A stretch of 56,670 bases of DNA from Caldithrix abyssi (lineage in GTDB: Bacteria; Calditrichota; Calditrichia; Calditrichales; Calditrichaceae). Positions 2,511 through 56,670 of this stretch are shown here, one piece after another. The stretch lies in the NCBI GenBank assembly GCA_011369465.1, contig DRQG01000105.1:1-56670 (forward strand). The letters are read 5' to 3'. A program made the position numbers and the translations under genes. A model generated the notes under the pieces. That model made no database searches. It was not told where the DNA came from and worked only from the letters and a program-made list of their open reading frames with translations. Positions within the stretch are counted from its first letter, which is position 1. Each line of letters begins with the position of its first letter.

Positions 2511-2972
2511 ATGCCTCTGGAAGAACAAATACAGACCGATCTTAAAACCGCTATGAAGAGTGGCGAAAAAGATACGGTAACCACTCTGCGTTCCTTGCTG
2601 GCCCAGATTAAGGACGAGCGCATTAAACTGCGCACCAAGCGGGAGATGACCGAAGATGATGTGATAAAGGTTGTGCTCTCGGCAGTGAAAAAACGCAAAG
2701 AGGCTATTGAACTGTATAAACAAGGCAATCGTGAGGATCTGGTAAAGAAAGAACAGGATGAGTTAACCATTCTGCAAAAATATTTACCGGAACAGCTTTC
2801 CGAAGAAAAGATAACAGAGATCATTGATAAAATTATTGCCGAGGTAAACGCTTCTTCCATAAAAGATTTAGGTCGGGTGATGGGTGCGGCAATGGGGCAG
2901 TTGAAGGGCAAAGCCGACGGTAAGTTGGTACAGAATCTGGTCCGCCAGCGCCTCACCCAGATTTCCCAATGA
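2511..2972 (+). CDS. yqeY: GatB/YqeY domain protein
   Basis: A 153-residue protein. Family features are the N-terminal MPLEEQIQTDLKTAMKSGEK helix, the TLRSLLAQIKDERI segment, the KKRKEAIELYKQGNREDLV segment and the C-terminal DLGRVMGAAMGQLKGKADG motif. YqeY resembles the tail domain of GatB of the tRNA amidotransferase, so a tRNA-linked role has been suggested, but its function is not firmly known. It sits between rpsU (26 bases upstream) and a CvpA-family gene, whose ATG overlaps its stop by four bases (ATGA), showing translational coupling. Confidence 0.92.
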   Translation: MPLEEQIQTDLKTAMKSGEKDTVTTLRSLLAQIKDERIKLRTKREMTEDDVIKVVLSAVKKRKEAIELYKQGNREDLVKKEQDELTILQKYLPEQLSEEKITEIIDKIIAEVNASSIKDLGRVMGAAMGQLKGKADGKLVQNLVRQRLTQISQ

Positions 2973-3541
2973 CGCAATTTGATATTATCATCATTATTAT
3001 ATTGGCCTTTTTTGCCGTTCGCGGTATCTTCAGGGGCTTGGTCACCGAGCTCATTGTGCTTGTTTCCCTGGTACTCGGTTTCGTAATCGCTTTCACTTAT
3101 TTCCCCCAACTAAAAATAATTCTTACCAAGGTATTTCCGGTTTTGCCGCAATTTGCCGCACAAATCATATCTTTTGTTCTTTTATTCCTTGCGGTCAATA
3201 TTGTGTTGCGGATTATCGGAAAAGCTCTGAATAAACTGGTTCATTTTACATTCTTAAATTCGATTAACCGGCTGGCCGGCGGGCTTTTCGGATTTTTTAA
3301 AGCGGCTCTGCTGATAAGTCTGTTTATTCTTGTCATTGAACAAACCCCGTTTACGCCGCAAATTAAGTCCATGATTGGAGCGGACAAGAGCGAAGGATAC
3401 ACCGCTTTGAAAAATATTGCGCCGGGTTTCTACGATATGATCCTGAAAGTGATTCCCGGGGAAACCCGTATTCAACAGGATATCATAGATTCGATCCAAA
3501 AAGTGGATTCAACCACCAAAAAACTGGTAAATCCGTTTTAG
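2969..3541 (+). CDS. CvpA family membrane protein
   Basis: A 190-residue membrane protein with four hydrophobic helices: about residues 1-17 (FDIIIIIILAFFAVRGI), 22-45, 62-82 and 98-122. The pattern of an early RGxxRGLVTEL loop after helix 1 and GGLFGFFKAALLISL before helix 4 is typical of the CvpA (colicin V production) family, which affects envelope processes in a way still poorly defined. The start ATG overlaps the yqeY stop by four bases. After its stop the sequence turns at once into the repeat-filled spacer before mutS2, and no terminator hairpin is visible. Confidence 0.88.
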   Translation: MTQFDIIIIIILAFFAVRGIFRGLVTELIVLVSLVLGFVIAFTYFPQLKIILTKVFPVLPQFAAQIISFVLLFLAVNIVLRIIGKALNKLVHFTFLNSINRLAGGLFGFFKAALLISLFILVIEQTPFTPQIKSMIGADKSEGYTALKNIAPGFYDMILKVIPGETRIQQDIIDSIQKVDSTTKKLVNPF

Positions 3542-3561
3542 AGGGGGGCTTGTTGGCAAGT

Positions 3562-3617
3562 AGTTGGAAACTGGAAAGAGGATGCTGGTTTCTGGATACT
3601 GGGAACTCGGAACCGGG
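3562..3617. repeat. Degenerate 7-bp repeat array, CTGG type (8 units)
   Basis: Eight consecutive 7-mers fit the pattern NNCTGGN without a slip, for example AACTGGA, TTCTGGA and TACTGGG; later units drift to AACTCGG and AACCGGG. This is the first block of the repeat-filled spacer 3542-3998. The following stretch 3618-3714 is less regular, with GAAYNAN-like 7-mers and a repeated GGCACAAA word, and ends in AAGATTTATCTTGCG (3696-3710), which is also found at 6438-6452. Confidence 0.65.
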
Positions 3618-3714
3618 GAAAAAGAGTAATTAAGAACTATGAATGAAGGATTAAGAATATATAGGCACAAAAAGGACAAAGGCACAAAGTATCTGAAGAT
3701 TTATCTTGCGGAAT

Positions 3715-3813
3715 AGTACATAGTACCGAGTACTTAGTACAGAGTAGTAAGTGACAGGTGATGAGAAATCAATTACGAATTATTTAATTACGAATTAGAA
3801 GCTGATAGCTGAC
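3715..3813. repeat. Degenerate 7-bp repeat array, AGTAC to AATTACG to AGCTGA type (14 units)
   Basis: Starting with AGTACAT, fourteen 7-mers follow in one phase, with a single extra base at 3785. The unit changes from AGTACNN through AGTGACA and GGTGATG to AATTACG and finally AGCTGAT/AGCTGAC. The first six units (3715-3756) are 38/42 identical to 6503-6544 in the spacer before polA. No coding frame of note is present. Confidence 0.75.
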
Positions 3814-3814
3814 C

Positions 3815-3856
3815 CTTCGACTGCGCTCAAGGTTCGGAGGCTGAGCTTTGTCGAAG
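3815..3856. repeat. Palindromic REP-like element (CTTCGAC type)
   Basis: CTTCGAC at 3815-3821 pairs with GTCGAAG at 3850-3856, and GCTCA at 3825-3829 pairs with TGAGC at 3842-3846, with a three-base mismatch between. CTTCGAC...GCTCA palindromes are scattered in many bacterial genomes. Related copies with the CCCTTCGAC opening lie at 6714 and 6936, both within repeat DNA before polA. Confidence 0.6.
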
Positions 3857-3860
3857 CCGA

Positions 3861-3998
3861 TGGCCGAAGCTGATAGCCGACAGCCGAGAGCTGACAGCCG
3901 AAAGCCAATCCAATAACTTAATAACTTAGTAACTGAAAACTGATAACTAAAAACTAATAACTGACAACTGAAAACTTACGGCCGACAGCCAAATCCTT
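3861..3998. repeat. Degenerate 7-bp repeat array, AGCCGA to AACTGA type, running up to the mutS2 start
   Basis: About nineteen units. First come AGCCGAN/AGCTGAN 7-mers (3861-3909), then NNAACTN units (3912-3977, three of them 8 bp), then a return to GCC-type units (3978-3998). The last unit ends at 3998 and the mutS2 ATG follows at 3999, so no separate leader or recognisable ribosome site exists. The unit type resembles the heptanucleotide repeats known from some cyanobacteria, but the function is unknown. Confidence 0.75.
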
Positions 3999-6356
3999 AT
4001 GCAAAATTTTACTAAAATAAAAGAAATACTGGAATTCGATAAAATTGTTGATTTCATCGCGCAAAAATGTGTTTCCGAAACAGGGAAGACCCGGCTGATT
4101 AACAGCGAGCCGCTTACACAAAAAGAAATACTGCAAACTTTGCTGGATCAGATACAGGAAATGCGCGAACTGTATCAATTTGAGGGCGGTTTGCCCATCT
4201 GGCATTTTGTCGACGTGCGTGTTCTACTGTCCAAAATAGAACCAGTGGACAGCTATTTGAGTGTGCAGGATTTTCTTGCCCTGCAAAACATATTGGAACT
4301 TGTGCAGGAAATCGCTTCTTTCACTAAAAAGATTACCGGAAAATATCCTGTTTTAAGCCGGGTTCTGCAGGCTGTGCAGCCGCTTCCGAAACTATTGAAC
4401 CAAATTAAATTTACCTTTGAACCGTCCGGCCGCTTGTTCGATAACGCCAGCCCGCAACTGAAAATCATCCGCAAAGATATGGAACGCGTTAATACGGAAC
4501 TGCATACCCGGTTGGAACGTATTCTGCGCAAGCAGGCCGAACATGTGCAGGAAGAGTATCTGACCCTGCGCGATGGCAGGCTGGTCATCCCCGTACGGGA
4601 GTTTTCTCTCAATAAAGTGCCGGGCATTGTGCACGGGCAATCGGGAACGGGCGCCACCTATTTTGTTGAGCCGATGCAGGTGGTTGAGCTGAATAACGAT
4701 ATGCAAAAGCTGATTTCCGAGGAACAGAAGGAGATTATCCGAATCCTCAAGCGGCTCAGCGCGGTAGTTCGTGAAGAACAGGCGGTACTGTTAACCGATT
4801 TTGAGTTGCTCAATCAATTGGATGTACTGCAGGCCAAAGCCCGGTACGCTAACGAGGTGAAAGGTCTGGCGCCGCAAATTTCAGAAGATTTCGTCTGGCA
4901 GATTAAAGCGGCCCGGCATCCGGTTCTTCTGAAAATGCATGCCGAAAAGACCGTCCCGCTTTCATTGGAGATTGGCGGAGAAGAGCACATCTTGATTATT
5001 TCCGGCCCGAATGCCGGGGGCAAAACCGTAGCCCTTAAAACCGTAGGACTGCTGCAGCTTCTCTTCCAATCCGGATTTCATATTCCGGTGGCCGCCGGAA
5101 CGTGTATGCCTGTGTGTGAAAACATCTTCTGTGTTATCGGTGATGAACAATCCATTGAACAGGACTTGAGTACCTTTTCATCTCATGTCAAATCGTTGAA
5201 TGACATTGTTGACCATGTGACCGAACACAGCCTGGTGCTGATTGATGAAATAGGCAGCGGCACGGAACCGGGCAGCGGGGCCGCCTTGGCTATTGCCATT
5301 TTGGAAAAACTCAACCGCCCGGATATGGTTACGATTGCCACAACGCATCAAAACCAATTGAAGGCTTTTGCCGCGGAAACCGCAGGCATTCAAAATGCGG
5401 CTATGCAATTTGATTCGGATAAATTAACGCCGTTGTTTACATTGGAAATGGGCGTACCGGGCAGCAGCTATACCTTTGAAATTTGCCGCCGCTTGGGTCT
5501 CGACGAGAGCATCCTCGACCGGGCGGTGGAGTTATCGCGCAAAGAGACTTTTGAACTGGACGCTTTATTGGCTGATCTGACCCGTAAAAGTCAGCAGTAC
5601 CGCCAAATGGTGGACGAAATGAGCATACAGGAATCGAAGCTGAAAAGCCTTACTAAACTATATGATGATAAAACCCGTGAGCTGAAAAAGAAGGCCAAAC
5701 AGTATGAGCGGGAAGCCAAAGAGAAAGCCCGGACCATTATTGATGAAGCCAATCGGGAAATCGAAGCCACTATCCGCGCCATTCGGGAGGCTCAGGCCGA
5801 AAAACAGGTCGTAAAAAAGGTGCGTGCACAACTACAAGCAAGACGAACGGCTCTGGCTGTGCAGGAAGAGAGCCAAGCGCCCAAAGCGGCGCCGGACATA
5901 TCCCGGCTAAAAACCGGTCAGCGTGTTCGTTCCCTTAAATTCGGTATAAAAGGGCAAATAAGTAAAGTACTGAAGAAACGCAATAGTGTGGAAATTGACC
6001 GGAACGGGATAAAAATTACCGTACCGGTGGATGACGTGGAAGTGCTTGAGACGACGGGATCAACCGTGAAAACGAAGCGTTCTGTCTCAACGGGAATAGC
6101 GCCTGCGGTTAATATTCCCAACGAACTCGATATTCGCGGGCTAACCGTGGACGAAGCGTTGCGGCAGGTGGAAGCCTATCTGGATAAAGCTTTGATGTCT
6201 TCGTGGGAAGAGGTACGGCTGGTCCACGGTAAAGGCACGGGCGCACTGCGCAAGGCCGTTCAGAACTATCTGGCCGGTTTGCCTGCCGTAAAGGAATTCC
6301 GTTCCGGCAAATGGGGCGAAGGCGATTTGGGGGTTACGGTTGTTAAATTGGGATGA
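3999..6356 (+). CDS. mutS2: Endonuclease MutS2
   Basis: A 785-residue protein of normal MutS2 length. It lacks the N-terminal mismatch-recognition domain of MutS and has the lever/clamp and ATPase regions. The Walker A motif GPNAGGKT is at residues 336-343 and the Walker B motif LVLIDEIGSG has its acidic pair at D416-E417. A coiled-coil linker rich in Lys and Glu covers about 520-615. The C-terminal Smr nuclease domain starts LDIRGLTVDEAL at about 710 and carries HGKGTG at 743-748. MutS2 suppresses recombination or, in some species, splits collided ribosomes; which applies here cannot be told. The start is the first ATG after a stretch of 7-bp repeats and has no clear ribosome site. Confidence 0.95.
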   Translation: MQNFTKIKEILEFDKIVDFIAQKCVSETGKTRLINSEPLTQKEILQTLLDQIQEMRELYQFEGGLPIWHFVDVRVLLSKIEPVDSYLSVQDFLALQNILELVQEIASFTKKITGKYPVLSRVLQAVQPLPKLLNQIKFTFEPSGRLFDNASPQLKIIRKDMERVNTELHTRLERILRKQAEHVQEEYLTLRDGRLVIPVREFSLNKVPGIVHGQSGTGATYFVEPMQVVELNNDMQKLISEEQKEIIRILKRLSAVVREEQAVLLTDFELLNQLDVLQAKARYANEVKGLAPQISEDFVWQIKAARHPVLLKMHAEKTVPLSLEIGGEEHILIISGPNAGGKTVALKTVGLLQLLFQSGFHIPVAAGTCMPVCENIFCVIGDEQSIEQDLSTFSSHVKSLNDIVDHVTEHSLVLIDEIGSGTEPGSGAALAIAILEKLNRPDMVTIATTHQNQLKAFAAETAGIQNAAMQFDSDKLTPLFTLEMGVPGSSYTFEICRRLGLDESILDRAVELSRKETFELDALLADLTRKSQQYRQMVDEMSIQESKLKSLTKLYDDKTRELKKKAKQYEREAKEKARTIIDEANREIEATIRAIREAQAEKQVVKKVRAQLQARRTALAVQEESQAPKAAPDISRLKTGQRVRSLKFGIKGQISKVLKKRNSVEIDRNGIKITVPVDDVEVLETTGSTVKTKRSVSTGIAPAVNIPNELDIRGLTVDEALRQVEAYLDKALMSSWEEVRLVHGKGTGALRKAVQNYLAGLPAVKEFRSGKWGEGDLGVTVVKLG

Positions 6357-6370
6357 AGAGGAAAAGAAAC

Positions 6371-6434
6371 GGTAACAGGTGACGAGTGACGGGAAAACAA
6401 TTACGAATCAGTAAATTACGAATTACGAATGTAA
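6371..6434. repeat. Degenerate 7-bp repeat array, GTGACG to AATTACG type
   Basis: Units GGTAACA, GGTGACG, AGTGACG and GGAAAAC lead into AATTACG, AATCAGT, then two more AATTACG and AATGTAA, with one extra base at 6413. It begins 15 bases after the mutS2 stop. The same AATTACG units occur at 3771-3792 in the spacer before mutS2. Confidence 0.65.
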
Positions 6435-6452
6435 CGCAAGATTTATCTTGCG
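6435..6452. repeat. Perfect palindrome CGCAAGAT-TT-ATCTTGCG
   Basis: An 8-bp perfect inverted repeat with a two-base centre. Its right 15 bases recur at 3696-3710 before mutS2, where the left arm has decayed. The element interrupts the 7-bp repeat mosaic between mutS2 and polA. It may fold as RNA or act as a mobile palindrome; no T-run follows, so it is not a standard terminator. Confidence 0.65.
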
Positions 6453-6502
6453 CCCTGACGACAAAGACCAACAGGGGCAAAGGTAGCAAGGAACAAAGTA
6501 TA

Positions 6503-6638
6503 AGTACATAGTAATTAGTACTTAGTACAGAGTAGTAAGTGCCAAATAATTAGAAATTGGAAATTAGAAACTTGAAACCCGGAACAGAGAACTAATAACT
6601 TAATAACTTAATAACTTGAAACTGACATCTGATAACTT
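6503..6638. repeat. Degenerate 7-bp repeat array, AGTAC to AAATT to AACTT type (19 units)
   Basis: The array starts AGTACAT, AGTAATT, AGTACTT, continues through AGAAATT and GGAAATT, then GAAACCC and GGAACAG, and ends in ATAACTT-type units. Three units are 8 bp long; all others are 7 bp. The opening 42 bases match 3715-3756 at 38 positions. Confidence 0.75.
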
Positions 6639-6656
6639 TCGTAGCGAAGCGAAGAA

Positions 6657-6670
6657 CCCGCCGTGGCGGG
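6657..6670. repeat. GC-rich hairpin CCCGCC-GT-GGCGGG
   Basis: A 6-bp perfect stem with a two-base loop inside the spacer between mutS2 and polA. It is followed by G residues and not by T residues, so it does not look like a terminator on the plus strand. It is flanked on both sides by 7-bp repeat units. Confidence 0.5.
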
Positions 6671-6713
6671 GGGAATTGGGAGCTGAAAACTAAAACTAAC
6701 AGCCGACGGCCAA

Positions 6714-6761
6714 CCCTTCGACCCCGACCAGTCGGGACAGGCGAGGCTCAGGGAGCGAAGG
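6714..6761. repeat. REP-like element, CCCTTCGAC type
   Basis: It opens with CCCTTCGAC, holds the perfect hairpin CCCGACCAGTCGGG, and closes with GGCTCAGGG and CGAAGG, so its ends pair (CCTTCG with CGAAGG). It belongs with the elements at 3815 and 6936. Confidence 0.5.
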
Positions 6762-6801
6762 TTGAACGTTCGGTAAGGCTCCGGGCAAAAGCCAACAGCT
6801 T

Positions 6802-6934
6802 ACAGCCTATCACCAAAAGCCGATTGCTGATAGCTGACAGCCGATAGCTATGAATTTCGAACACGGATTAACGATTTAAGATTTAAGAACTGAAAACTGA
6901 GAACTGACAACTGATAACTAATAACTAAAAACTA
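6802..6934. repeat. Uninterrupted degenerate 7-bp array, 19 units over 133 bp
   Basis: From ACAGCCT at 6802 to AAAACTA at 6934 every unit is exactly 7 bp. The consensus shifts from NNAGCCN/NNAGCTG to NGATTTA and then to NNAACTG/NNAACTA. Phase is kept even through units that share few bases with their neighbours, such as TGAATTT and CGAACAC. This is the longest slip-free array in the window and lies 60 bases before the polA start. Confidence 0.8.
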
Positions 6935-6935
6935 A

Positions 6936-6955
6936 CCCTTCGACGGGGCTCAGGG
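6936..6955. repeat. REP-like element CCCTTCGACGGGGCTCAGGG
   Basis: A 20-base copy of the CCCTTCGAC...GCTCAGGG motif follows directly after the 7-bp array. The remaining 38 bases to the polA start (6956-6993) show only a weak GCAGCC/AACAAC pattern and a possible weak ribosome site TGGA at 6979-6982. Confidence 0.5.
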
Positions 6956-6993
6956 CAAGCAGCCAACAACAAACAATCCTGGAAATACGTATT

Positions 6994-54106: not shown

Positions 54107-56670
54107 ATGATTATCAAAAGAATTCCCCTGTTGCTTCTTTTATCCTTATTTGGATTTGTTTTTGGTCAGGTCAAATATGAGGGTGAGAAGCAGGCTAATA
54201 CCACAACCGATTACATTCAGGATCTCCCGGATGTAAAGGTAGACAGCCTTGGTAATTTTGTGATGGTATGGCAATCCTATTTTCATCCGGGCAGCACCAA
54301 TCAATGGTACACGGTTATTGCCCGTATGTTTGATTCCACGGGAACCGCTCTTACAGATGAAATCATGGTTGATGCGGATGCAAATTCCAAAAATCAACGT
54401 ACACCCAAAGTCGCCCTAACCCCGGATGGGGGGTTCATAGTAACCTGGGCCCAGCTCAGTTATGACGATACCTTAGCCTATGATATTTATGCAAGACGAT
54501 TTGATTCGAGCGGCAATCCGATCGGGTCTTCCTTTAAGGTGAACACGCAAGATAGTCTGAACCAGGCCTATCCGGATATATCCAGTGACGATGGTGGAAA
54601 TTTTGTGATCGTCTGGGAACATCAGAATAATCCCGATTCTACCTACGATATTTATGCGCAGCGGTTTGATTCCACCGGAGCGCCCATCGATTCCAATTTT
54701 ATAGTAAATACATACACCACTAATGATCAGACCAAACCCGCTGTCAGCATGAATGACGTCGGAAACTTTGCCATCGGCTGGCAAAGTATGGAACAGGATA
54801 ATTCCCAATGGGGTGTATATTTCCAACGATACAATGCAGACGGAACGAAGTTCGGTGGAGAGATAAGAGCAAATAGCTACACACCGAATTATCAAAGAGA
54901 TATCGATGTTGCTTTGAATAACAATGACTATTTAGCCGTTGTATGGCAAAGCGCACCGGGCCCGATTGACGGGAGTGACTATGGAGTTTATGCAAAACTT
55001 TATAGCAATACAGGCGCATCCCGATGGTCTGACGGTATGCTGATTAATAATTATACAGATAACGATCAGCGCAGACCATACGTGGATATGGATGATCAAA
55101 ATCAGTTTCTGGTTGTGTGGGAAAGTTATTTACAGGATGGGTCCGGAAAAGGAGTATATGCGCGAAGAGTAGATCAGGATGGCAATTTTATCTCTGATGA
55201 ATTTCGTGTTAATACCATAACGACCAACGATCAATATGCAGGTATTCCGGCGATACGGGATGGCGGTGATTTTGTCATTGCTTTCAGTTCCTATGTAGAA
55301 CCGGATCTGGTACGTTACGATGTAAAATATCAGGTTTACAGAATGTCTCCTGTTTTTTCTGCTCTGCCCCAAAAATCGTTTGACGAAGATAATGTGCTTA
55401 CCTATCCGGTCTCGGATTATTTTCCCTACGTGGATGACGAAAATGATGCCGATGAAACCCTATCCTGGCAAACTTTTAACGGTCAGCATACAACCACCGC
55501 GATCGCTAATGATTCTGTTTCGGTAACTCCCGAAGCGAATTGGTTCGGTACCGATTCCTTTATGGTTGTGGTCATGGACCCGGACGGTCTGACAGATACT
55601 ACGTATCAGGTTGTTGTTGTCAATTCCGTAAACGACATCCCTGTTGCTGCAAATGATAGTGCTACAACCGATGAAGACAATGCTGTTGAAATAGCTGTTT
55701 TAAGTAACGACAGTGATGCGGACGGAGATACTTTAACCGTTACCCAGGTATCCACTCCCGCAAACGGAAGCGCACAAATCAATAACGGCACCACTGTCAC
55801 ATACACACCCGATGCCAATTTTTTTGGTAGTGACAGTTTTACCTACATCGTTGATGACGGAAATGGCGGGACGGATACAGCCACTGTAAACGTTACGGTT
55901 AATTCGGTAAATGATCCGCCTGTAGCCGTGGATGACAGTGAAACCACCGATGAAGATAACGCAGTGGAAATCGCTGTTTTAACGAATGATAGTGATGTGG
56001 AAAACGATGCTTTAACCGTAACCAGCGTTACGACACCATCGAACGGTACGGCTGTAATTAATAACGGAACCACGGTTACCTACACGCCCGATGCCAACTA
56101 TTACGGGTCGGATAGTTTCGACTATGTGATCGATGACGGCAACGGCGGCCAGGATACGGCGACGGTTACGATTACAGTGAACTCGATTAATGACATACCT
56201 GTAGCCGTGGATGACAATGCGACAACCGACGAAGACAACGCAGTCGAAGTGGATGTTCTGGCCAATGACAGCGATGCCGACAACGATGCCCTGACCATAA
56301 CCGAAGTATCCACACCGGCCAACGGCACAGCGCAAATTAACGGAGGCAGTTCGGTAACTTACACGCCTAACGCCAACTATTACGGTAGCGACAGCTTTAA
56401 CTATGTGGTAAGTGACGGTAACGGCGGTACGGATACGGCCACTGTAAACGTAACAGTTAACTCCGTAAACGATGCGCCGGTAGCCGTGGATGACAATGCA
56501 ACGACAGATGAAGAAGTTGCTGTAGAAATTACTGTGTTAAGTAATGACAGTGATGTGGAAAACGATCCGTTAACCGTAACCGACGTAACCACACCGGCCA
56601 ATGGTACGGCGGTAATAAATTCCGGCACAACGGTAACCTACACACCGAATACAGATTTTTTTGGCGCCGA
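54107..56670 (+). CDS. Large secreted repeat protein (tandem-95 type), 3' truncated by the window
   Basis: An ATG at 54107 with AAGGAG at 54095-54100 starts signal peptide MIIKRIPLLLLLSLFGFVFG. The frame stays open to base 56670, giving at least 854 residues. Residues about 30-415 are six or so repeats of about 65 residues with the words FVIVW, DIYARRFDSxG and VNTxTxNDQ, a propeller-like pattern. From about residue 425 come cadherin-like Ig units of 93 residues (first one divergent), each with TDEDNAVEI, VLSNDSD, TPANGTA, VTYTPDANFFGSDSF and DDGNGGTDTATV. These match the tandem-95 repeat family of surface adhesins. A T9SS sorting domain may lie beyond the window. Confidence 0.88.
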   Translation, partial: MIIKRIPLLLLLSLFGFVFGQVKYEGEKQANTTTDYIQDLPDVKVDSLGNFVMVWQSYFHPGSTNQWYTVIARMFDSTGTALTDEIMVDADANSKNQRTPKVALTPDGGFIVTWAQLSYDDTLAYDIYARRFDSSGNPIGSSFKVNTQDSLNQAYPDISSDDGGNFVIVWEHQNNPDSTYDIYAQRFDSTGAPIDSNFIVNTYTTNDQTKPAVSMNDVGNFAIGWQSMEQDNSQWGVYFQRYNADGTKFGGEIRANSYTPNYQRDIDVALNNNDYLAVVWQSAPGPIDGSDYGVYAKLYSNTGASRWSDGMLINNYTDNDQRRPYVDMDDQNQFLVVWESYLQDGSGKGVYARRVDQDGNFISDEFRVNTITTNDQYAGIPAIRDGGDFVIAFSSYVEPDLVRYDVKYQVYRMSPVFSALPQKSFDEDNVLTYPVSDYFPYVDDENDADETLSWQTFNGQHTTTAIANDSVSVTPEANWFGTDSFMVVVMDPDGLTDTTYQVVVVNSVNDIPVAANDSATTDEDNAVEIAVLSNDSDADGDTLTVTQVSTPANGSAQINNGTTVTYTPDANFFGSDSFTYIVDDGNGGTDTATVNVTVNSVNDPPVAVDDSETTDEDNAVEIAVLTNDSDVENDALTVTSVTTPSNGTAVINNGTTVTYTPDANYYGSDSFDYVIDDGNGGQDTATVTITVNSINDIPVAVDDNATTDEDNAVEVDVLANDSDADNDALTITEVSTPANGTAQINGGSSVTYTPNANYYGSDSFNYVVSDGNGGTDTATVNVTVNSVNDAPVAVDDNATTDEEVAVEITVLSNDSDVENDPLTVTDVTTPANGTAVINSGTTVTYTPNTDFFGA
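55682..56670 (+). repeat. Exact 279-bp tandem repeats within the large secreted protein gene
   Basis: The reference codon of each unit (GCT/GCA of the AVEI motif) lies at 55682, 55961, 56240 and 56519, so the spacing is 279 bases each time with no indel. The units are diverged at the DNA level, mostly at silent positions. The array continues beyond the window. Confidence 0.85.

Follow-up and report, generated by a model that had tools for sequence, protein, structure and literature searches.

The spacer that precedes mutS2 (positions 3542-3998) within the window, i.e., within the whole 56,670-nucleotide stretch of DNA that was analyzed, consists of a chain of heptads, that is, of tandem 7-base units whose words change along the chain. 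In dozens of spacers of this genome the order of such chains is fixed, not random. That this spacer belongs to a dispersed family of heptad chains, polar and composite in build, is a reading to which we give an even chance, a grading which applies jointly to it and to the whole account of copying developed below. New here are the ordered, phase-locked chain of differing words and its gain inside compact operons, and so too are a vocabulary (AACTGAN, AATTACG) common to several phyla and a unit build of core plus free base. Already known are AACTGAN arrays as such (MacGregor 2015) and heptamers as the commonest intergenic tandem period (SPADE 2018).

Periodicity and parse of the cvpA-mutS2 spacer

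The original prediction held that the spacer before mutS2 repeats with a period of seven, and this is borne out. Identity at lag 7 is 0.49 (z 10.5 versus 1000 dinucleotide-preserving shuffles), with values of 0.42 (z 7.8) and 0.40 (z 6.5) at lags 14 and 21. Across all lags of all shuffles z reached 4.3 at most, so that lag 7 stands above every shuffle. The three blocks that had been named, 3562-3617, 3715-3813, and 3861-3998, are present, with lag-7 z of 4.9 over 3542-3700, 5.7 over 3715-3813, and 7.8 over 3861-3998. At 3814-3860 the lag-7 signal is absent, a hairpin element being found there instead of heptads. TRF reports arrays of period 7, 14, or 21 at 3713-3746, 3852-3906, and 3912-3976, and in the rest of the 56.7-kb window, i.e., beyond this spacer and the mutS2-polA spacer (6357-6993), it reports no comparable period-7 arrays.

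The word families distinguished here are O8 (GGCACAAA, 8 bases), S (AGTANNN), D (GGTGACN), W (GGAAACT type), N (AATTACG), F (GATTTAC), Q (AGCYGAN), T (AATAACTT, 8 bases), and U (AACTGAN), along with the hairpins H1, H2, and H3. Heptads had been expected to be interrupted by slips of single bases only. One 1-base slip is indeed seen, among the N words, but the units at about 3663-3692, and in part of 3912-3930, are 8 bases long.

Table 1. Features of the two spacers and of the adjoining genes (positions are those of the window)
Feature	Position	Strand	Evidence
Upstream gene, CvpA family	2969..3541	+	ORF; adjoins mutS2 in relatives
Whole cvpA-mutS2 spacer, heptad chain throughout	3542..3998	+	lag-7 z 10.5
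W words, CTGGAAA / GGGAACT type	3562..3617	+	lag-7 segment
O8 words, 8-base units, GGCACAAA / AGGCACAA type	~3663..3692	+	sequence read
Degenerate H1 hairpin copy (CGCAAGATTTATCTTGCG)	3693..3710	+	sequence
S words AGTACAT AGTACCG AGTACTT AGTACAG AGTAGTA	3715..3749	+	heptad parse
D words grading into W: AGTGACA GGTGATG AGAAATC, phase of S kept	3750..3770	+	heptad parse
N words, AATTACG type, one 1-base slip	3771..3799	+	sequence, parse
Q words AGCTGAT AGCTGAC	3800..3813	+	sequence
H3 hairpin element CCTTCGAC..CTCAAGG..TTGTCGAAG (GTCGAAG), without heptads	3814..3857	+	lag-7 signal absent
Q words AGCYGAN	3855..3909	+	TRF period 7/14/21
T words, 8-base unit AATAACTT	3912..3930	+	TRF
U words AACTGAN / AACTAAN	3931..3978	+	TRF
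Terminal Q words immediately 5' of mutS2 start	3980..3991	+	sequence
Downstream gene mutS2, 785 aa	3999..6356	+	ORF; homologues 38-60% identical in relatives
Second chain, mutS2-polA spacer, D-N-H1-S-W-T-H2-Q-F-U-H3	6357..6993	+	lag-7 z 12.3
Exact H1 hairpin, second chain	6435..6452	+	exact match
S words, second chain	6503..6541	+	
F-to-U passage GATTTAAGATTTAAGAACTGA...	6868..6936	+	similar in Prevotellaceae and Riflebacteria genomes

The name CvpA is one that we presume from the known cvpA-mutS2 gene order. Parts of these chains are found elsewhere as well: The O8 module precedes the H1 hairpin in many spacers, the S unit series of 3715-3749 recurs in spacers L023 and L158, the H3 element recurs in other spacers, and the N word AATTACG is seen also in relatives and in other phyla. 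Between heptad blocks of the second chain, at about 6640-6690, lies the hairpin module H2 (TTTCGTAGCGAAGCGAAGAACCCGCCGTGGCGGGG), also found in L023, L029, L035, and L182. No Rfam covariance model matches either spacer at E <= 1. Within mutS2 (5926-5984) the glutamine riboswitch matches weakly, probably by chance (24.6 bits versus a gathering value of 35; E 0.095). At the end of the window, 55625-56643, is a tandem repeat of period 279 (3.6 copies, 70% matches), the consensus of which looks, by eye, like a repeated protein domain.

Order, phase, and joining of words

Among spacers with at least two word matches, all words lie on one strand in 49 of 53. Counted once per spacer, S precedes U (19/19) and Q (17/17), W precedes Q (23/23), N precedes Q (20/20), and both D and O8 precede U (12/12 and 16/16, respectively). 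Order is not fixed for Q versus U (19/37) or for W versus N (10/17). As spacers were retrieved mostly by AACTGA matches, counts which involve U are conditioned on such matches, and related copies are not independent of one another. Word order is kept in chains that are antisense to genes, and order thus is a property of the chain rather than of the genes.

How words grade into one another is seen with the spacer at L032:10298-10714, which reads in sevens as AGTACTT AGTACAT AGTAATT AGTACAG AGTAGTA GGTAACA GGTAACG CGTGACG AGAAATT AGAAACT and then, before its first slip, as GGAAACT CGAAACT GGGAAAG AATTACG AATTAGT. Within a family, spacing is nearly always 7 (e.g., 72 of 78 S spacings, over 44 spacers). 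That units should change while phase is kept holds, however, for most junctions but not for all: Of 253 word-change junctions in those 44 spacers, 123 are spaced by 0 modulo 7, and spacings of 3 form another peak. This latter peak (W to U) mainly results from choice of anchor, since the core AACT which is common to both words remains in register. To have described neighboring blocks as possessing unrelated consensus words was an overstatement, as many adjacent words have letters in common in register.

Chains are modular, with stretches of 40-120 bp recurring across spacers at 75-90% identity. The H1 hairpin is present as 57 exact copies in this genome versus 1 among 39 relatives. Of 45 S clusters, 16 have it at a distance of exactly 5 nt on their upstream side, and it is on the same strand in all 22 that have a nearby H1. 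Three alternatives follow H1 on the right, i.e., S, 8-base words, or Q/H3, and on the left 8-base words and N are the two main ones. The H1 junctions are, that is, a matter of combinatorial joining rather than of a single fixed element. Paralogous copies display unit-sized differences. The U units that follow a T anchor differ between spacers outside of the core, and some blocks therefore are not letter-by-letter copies.

Dispersed copies, intergenic targets, and the palindromes H1, H2, and H3, together with two Y1_Tnp genes in the genome, could point to transposition, with the chain as a transposable element, as a MITE, or as a REP-like element that a RAYT transposase mobilizes. We disfavor this reading and consider it very unlikely. 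The ends of the chains are not constant, with D, N, S, W, O8, or Q found at their start and different modules at their finish. In addition, H1, H3, and heptads are absent from the 450-500 bp to either side of both Y1_Tnp genes, and Y1_Tnp is found in 33 of 40 genomes, almost all of which are without such chains. One of the Y1_Tnp genes (L450; G000:C51:9800-12200) has flanking palindromes of its own, of CCCACGA..TCGTGGG and AACCGAT..ATCGGTTTC types, which are unrelated to H1 or H3. In the genome paper of Caldithrix abyssi an 18-nt palindrome is described, and the passages there on repeats and on intergenic DNA do not mention heptads (PMC5317091). REP/BIME elements, RAYTs, and that palindrome resemble the present case in being dispersed, intergenic palindromes, the last probably from the same phylum, but H1 and H3 differ from them in sequence and heptads, so far as those portions of text go, are no part of them.

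Abundance and placement of heptad chains

The genome (G000) is a 4.31-Mb draft in 161 contigs, 98.5% complete with 3.7% estimated contamination. A 404-kb sample of it, with contigs picked by number and thus independently of matches, holds 34 lag-7 segments, none of them centered in predicted genes (genes were called by a simple in-house script, so gene edges are approximate). The same 404 kb holds 17 segments at lag 8 and 0-2 each at lags 5, 6, and 9-11. Among intergenic gaps longer than 30 bp, 23 of 209 (about 11%) hold a lag-7 segment. Extrapolated, there should be about 245 such gaps per genome, which agrees with the anticipation that many such spacers would be found. From exact matches alone, once merged, there are at least 90 array sites. 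Genome-wide, AACTGANAACTGANAACTGA gives 62 matches versus 0 for its reversed control. Pooled identity is 0.46, 0.40, 0.36, and 0.34 at lags 7, 14, 21, and 28, with other lags mostly at 0.24-0.32. As identity thus declines slowly over lags 7 to 28, closer units are the more similar ones.

Arrays of ARCYGA are intergenic in 43 of 43 cases, at 10-619 nt from a start codon. Where both neighboring genes are codirectional, arrays lie on the coding strand by 23:6 (p 0.002), with ratios of 18:2 for N arrays and 13:2 for S arrays. Antisense cases thus occur, and another 5 ARCYGA arrays lie between convergent and 3 between divergent genes. Neighboring arrays separated by less than 20 kb share a strand in 16 cases and lie on opposite strands in 16, so that replication direction does not set strand, and a replication-strand effect was rejected.

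The chains may instead be arrays of functional sites with a 7-base pitch, read by an RNA- or DNA-binding protein or by a partner RNA, with the core as site, the free position or positions as spacer, and with order and coding-strand placement reflecting use in a downstream leader or at an upstream gene end. We hold this reading, as a whole, to be rather unlikely, though the coding-strand bias speaks for it, both here and in 116 loci of other taxa (57:17, p 3e-6), where arrays frequently lie 2-35 nt before a start codon. Translational regulation has been proposed for related arrays by MacGregor 2015 (PMC4679880). Stop triplets also are more frequent in sense (8.7 per 100 nt) than in shuffled (6.9) or antisense (4.1) readings. 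At odds with functional sites are the 6 of 29 arrays which are antisense as well as the 5 between convergent genes, where a leader is not needed. RNA folding of 73 array segments furthermore is ordinary (mean z of -0.4 sense and -0.8 antisense), which is why the idea of an unstructured leader was rejected.

Gain relative to close relatives

The spacer was compared with those of related genomes, as had been suggested. Between cvpA and mutS2, all 18 relatives have at most 17 bp (one overlap) versus 457 bp here, and hence the chain was gained in this lineage. The mutS2-polA gap, 637 bp here, is 9-97 bp in 7 of the 9 relatives with an adjoining polA, while the two remaining ones have 322 and 877 bp. 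That close relatives have so short a gap in the same operon weighs as well against site arrays.

Only 2 of 39 relatives have AACTGA arrays, and 5 have AATTACG arrays. AGTA heptads of relatives use words of their own, e.g., AGTAAGC and AGTAATG, such that the habit of period 7 is broader than any single word. In the relative G005 (L349, L353, L360, L362, L368), AATTACG arrays are joined to a second repeated stretch, CACGCGGAGCGGGAGGCTGTGCCCGAA...CTGCGATTATTGGCGTAATCTGCGAGAAAATTAC, and that genome thus possesses its own dispersed composite element.

Conserved cores and free bases

To distinguish core from free positions, a middle unit was scored between two intact (strictly matching) flanking units. 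The six core positions of AACTGA are 88-100% conserved in all groups, i.e., this genome, cyanobacteria, other phyla, and viral contigs. At the seventh position the base varies freely both here and in the pooled other phyla, but in cyanobacteria it is mostly T. Here its frequencies are A.28, C.25, G.11, and T.36. Adjacent units have an equal seventh base in 6 of 56 AACTGA pairs (0.11) and in 55 of 254 ARCYRA pairs (0.22), versus an expectation of 0.28-0.30 (deficit p 0.003 and 0.005, respectively). As permutation of the seventh base within arrays gives p 0.33 and 0.04, however, the safe claim is that the base is not shared rather than that sharing is avoided. In other groups, neighboring units agree at the seventh base at 0.57-0.99, which in most groups is far over expectation and is what local duplication of units predicts.

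These results bear on whether the arrays are ordinary heptanucleotide microsatellites, i.e., products of local slippage at each site followed by decay through point mutation. Heptamers were the most abundant intergenic tandem period among the 7006 prokaryotic genomes surveyed with SPADE (PMC6344855), and arrays in cyanobacteria, Acidobacteria, Planctomycetes, Bacteroidetes, and viral contigs behave as microsatellites do. For this genome, though, that explanation is quite unlikely and largely refuted. Decay should strike all seven positions equally, whereas one position alone is free, and neighbors here do not share their seventh base. The chain had been described as unlike a decayed microsatellite, and in both of these respects it is. 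Nor would independent local arrays repeat a multi-word order in dozens of spacers, or a fixed join of H1 to S.

Cores that are held next to bases that are free would suit functional sites. Core variation consists chiefly of transitions (395:37), although ARCYRAN-type flanks favor transitions. A single 7-state HMM for all words was set aside as it settled on Q and U words alone (A-R-C-Y-R-R-N), and its transition-only degeneracy therefore is in part a matter of which words it picked. In 21 copies anchored by H1, over units 2-4, the AGTA core is off consensus at 13 of 252 letters versus 69 of 189 for NNN. This supports constraint on the core while falling short of proof, as gain or loss of units by itself alters NNN and spares the core, which weakens the test.

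Six templated bases plus one free base per cycle are also what a template-repeating polymerase, telomerase- or reverse-transcriptase-like, would be expected to leave as its trace, including a near-random seventh base. This we judge to be extremely unlikely. No reverse transcriptase (PF00078, RVT_1) is found in this 98.5% complete genome, and seventh bases in other phyla are homogeneous.

Other phyla, phages, and plasmids

Among the matches listed, AACTGA arrays are found in Cyanobacteria, Bacteroidota, Planctomycetota, Acidobacteriota, Verrucomicrobiota, Chloroflexi, Poribacteria, Bipolaricaulota, Riflebacteria, Beggiatoaceae, and others. Viral contigs hold at least 120 AACTGA stretches, and a search of viral contigs for H1 found none. 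Microcystis phage Mic1 and plasmid p1-NIES88 have arrays within intergenic gaps, and both possibly are vehicles of array spread. When whole spacers were queried against plasmids and phages, the AACTGA part alone matched, in Microcystis. Near-pure, very long TAACTGA arrays are seen at L380 19007-19436 (p1-NIES88) and L379 11926-12094 (Mic1).

Arrays of AATTACG are present in 6 of 24 genomes selected by AACTGA, Planktothrix rubescens having 117 and one Chloroflexi genome 27, versus two matches, in one other genome, for the reversed control. A Chloroflexi locus (L391, G068) displays in-phase, stepwise words: AATCACG, AATTACG, TTTTACG, TTTCACG, TTCTACG, CTTTACG. The F-to-U passage (6868-6936) has a near-identical counterpart in one Prevotellaceae and in one Riflebacteria genome. 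Within the 116 loci of other taxa, which were selected by AACTGA matches, the full ordered chain was not found, and S, D, W, and H1 either are missing or do not exceed chance. In Phycisphaerales (L140, 376-395 and 2439-2465), AACTGAC arrays lie right before start codons. The genes behind them, going by their protein starts, presumably are ribosomal protein genes.

Relation to known heptamer repeats

Heptads had been taken as something known from cyanobacteria, which is too narrow, as arrays of this type have been published for other groups too (PMC4679880, PMC4692102, PMC6344855). TAACTGA repeats have been described in Beggiatoaceae, cyanobacteria, and Bacteroidetes, where they are patchy and accompanied by 'other heptamer direct repeats' in the same spacers, with 7-nt indels between Cyanothece strains and a transfer mechanism not evident (MacGregor 2015, PMC4679880). 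That family and the present one have in common an AACTGA core, a 7-base unit, intergenic location, coding-strand bias, patchiness, and, sometimes, other heptamers. TAACTGA arrays mostly comprise 2-6 units that are identical, T being constant as their seventh base, whereas here that base is free. Related heptamers rarely are repeated in BOGUAY, while here AGCYGAN, AATTACG, AGTANNN, and further words occur as arrays within one and the same spacer. Unlike the TAACTGA family, furthermore, this genome has several word families chained in a fixed order along with hairpins.

Rehm 2015 (PMC4692102), in the portions drawn upon here, describes G-rich heptamers near ORF ends, i.e., GGGAATC in Xanthomonas and GGGGAYT in Nostoc, and refers to a proposal by which DNA polymerase holds a stretch of 7 nt. 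These repeats likewise are 7-base, tandem, intergenic, near ORF ends, and different in length between relatives, but each is a single G-rich, G-quadruplex-capable word, and ordered word change is not reported in those portions. SPADE heptamers share period and intergenic site with ours, while a clear clue to function is lacking, and phased word change, order, and the core/free build are not described, in the corresponding portions of that paper (PMC6344855). In this genome most words are without G runs, GGG occurring in some W words only, so that the runs of at least three G per unit which a G-quadruplex calls for are lacking. Akin to G-rich heptamers are the cyanobacterial STRR repeats, which are 7-base, tandem, and intergenic.

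A copying account and its difficulties

What is to be explained are the observed period, word order, sharing of modules, restriction to spacers, gain versus relatives, orientation bias, and contrast of core and free positions. The explanation we prefer, at the even chance given at the outset, consists of duplication of 7-base units with change, then copying of composite pieces among spacers, and loss of those copies which hit genes. A 7-base unit would duplicate during DNA synthesis, by slippage or template switching, such that a heptad block grows, and changes tolerated during duplication would let the word drift while phase stays constant. Composite pieces, e.g., H1 plus an AGTANNN block, would then be copied between spacers through recombination or template switching between similar arrays, with exchange of modules at junctions such as H1 giving rise to mosaics, to one conserved order, and to unit-sized gains and losses. 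Selection would purge copies landing in genes, thereby leaving chains in stop-to-start gaps, mostly on the coding strand. Both the mechanism of copying and the origin in slippage are things that we infer. An origin through template switching or a copy-number process, as first put forward, is plausible.

Several observations count against this copying account. The unshared seventh base is contrary to simple unit duplication, unless that position varied freely under a held core, and blind copying does not account for the coding-strand bias (23:6). The differing U units behind the T anchor likewise count against it. As the account explains the free seventh base and the strand bias incompletely, the chains may yet serve as binding sites. 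No insertion intermediates or polymorphism were seen in this draft genome, and no congeneric genome was found.

Significance

Word order, free bases, and junctions are internal markers that record the addition of units and the movement of pieces, markers which single-word arrays do not have, and with these spacers the state before the gain is known from relatives. The genome thereby separates two histories, i.e., local unit duplication, as in other phyla, from dispersed composite chains, as here. In a broader and decidedly doubtful proposal, the period-7 intergenic DNA of many phyla, phages, and plasmids would be one system with a shared vocabulary, each word consisting of a core that is read plus a free base or bases, and the ordered, phased, coding-strand, stop-to-start words would be due to a widespread cellular machine that reads or writes nucleic acid in sevens. 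If the six-plus-one build does reflect reading by a protein or RNA, then an unknown factor which acts on leaders would be common to many phyla.
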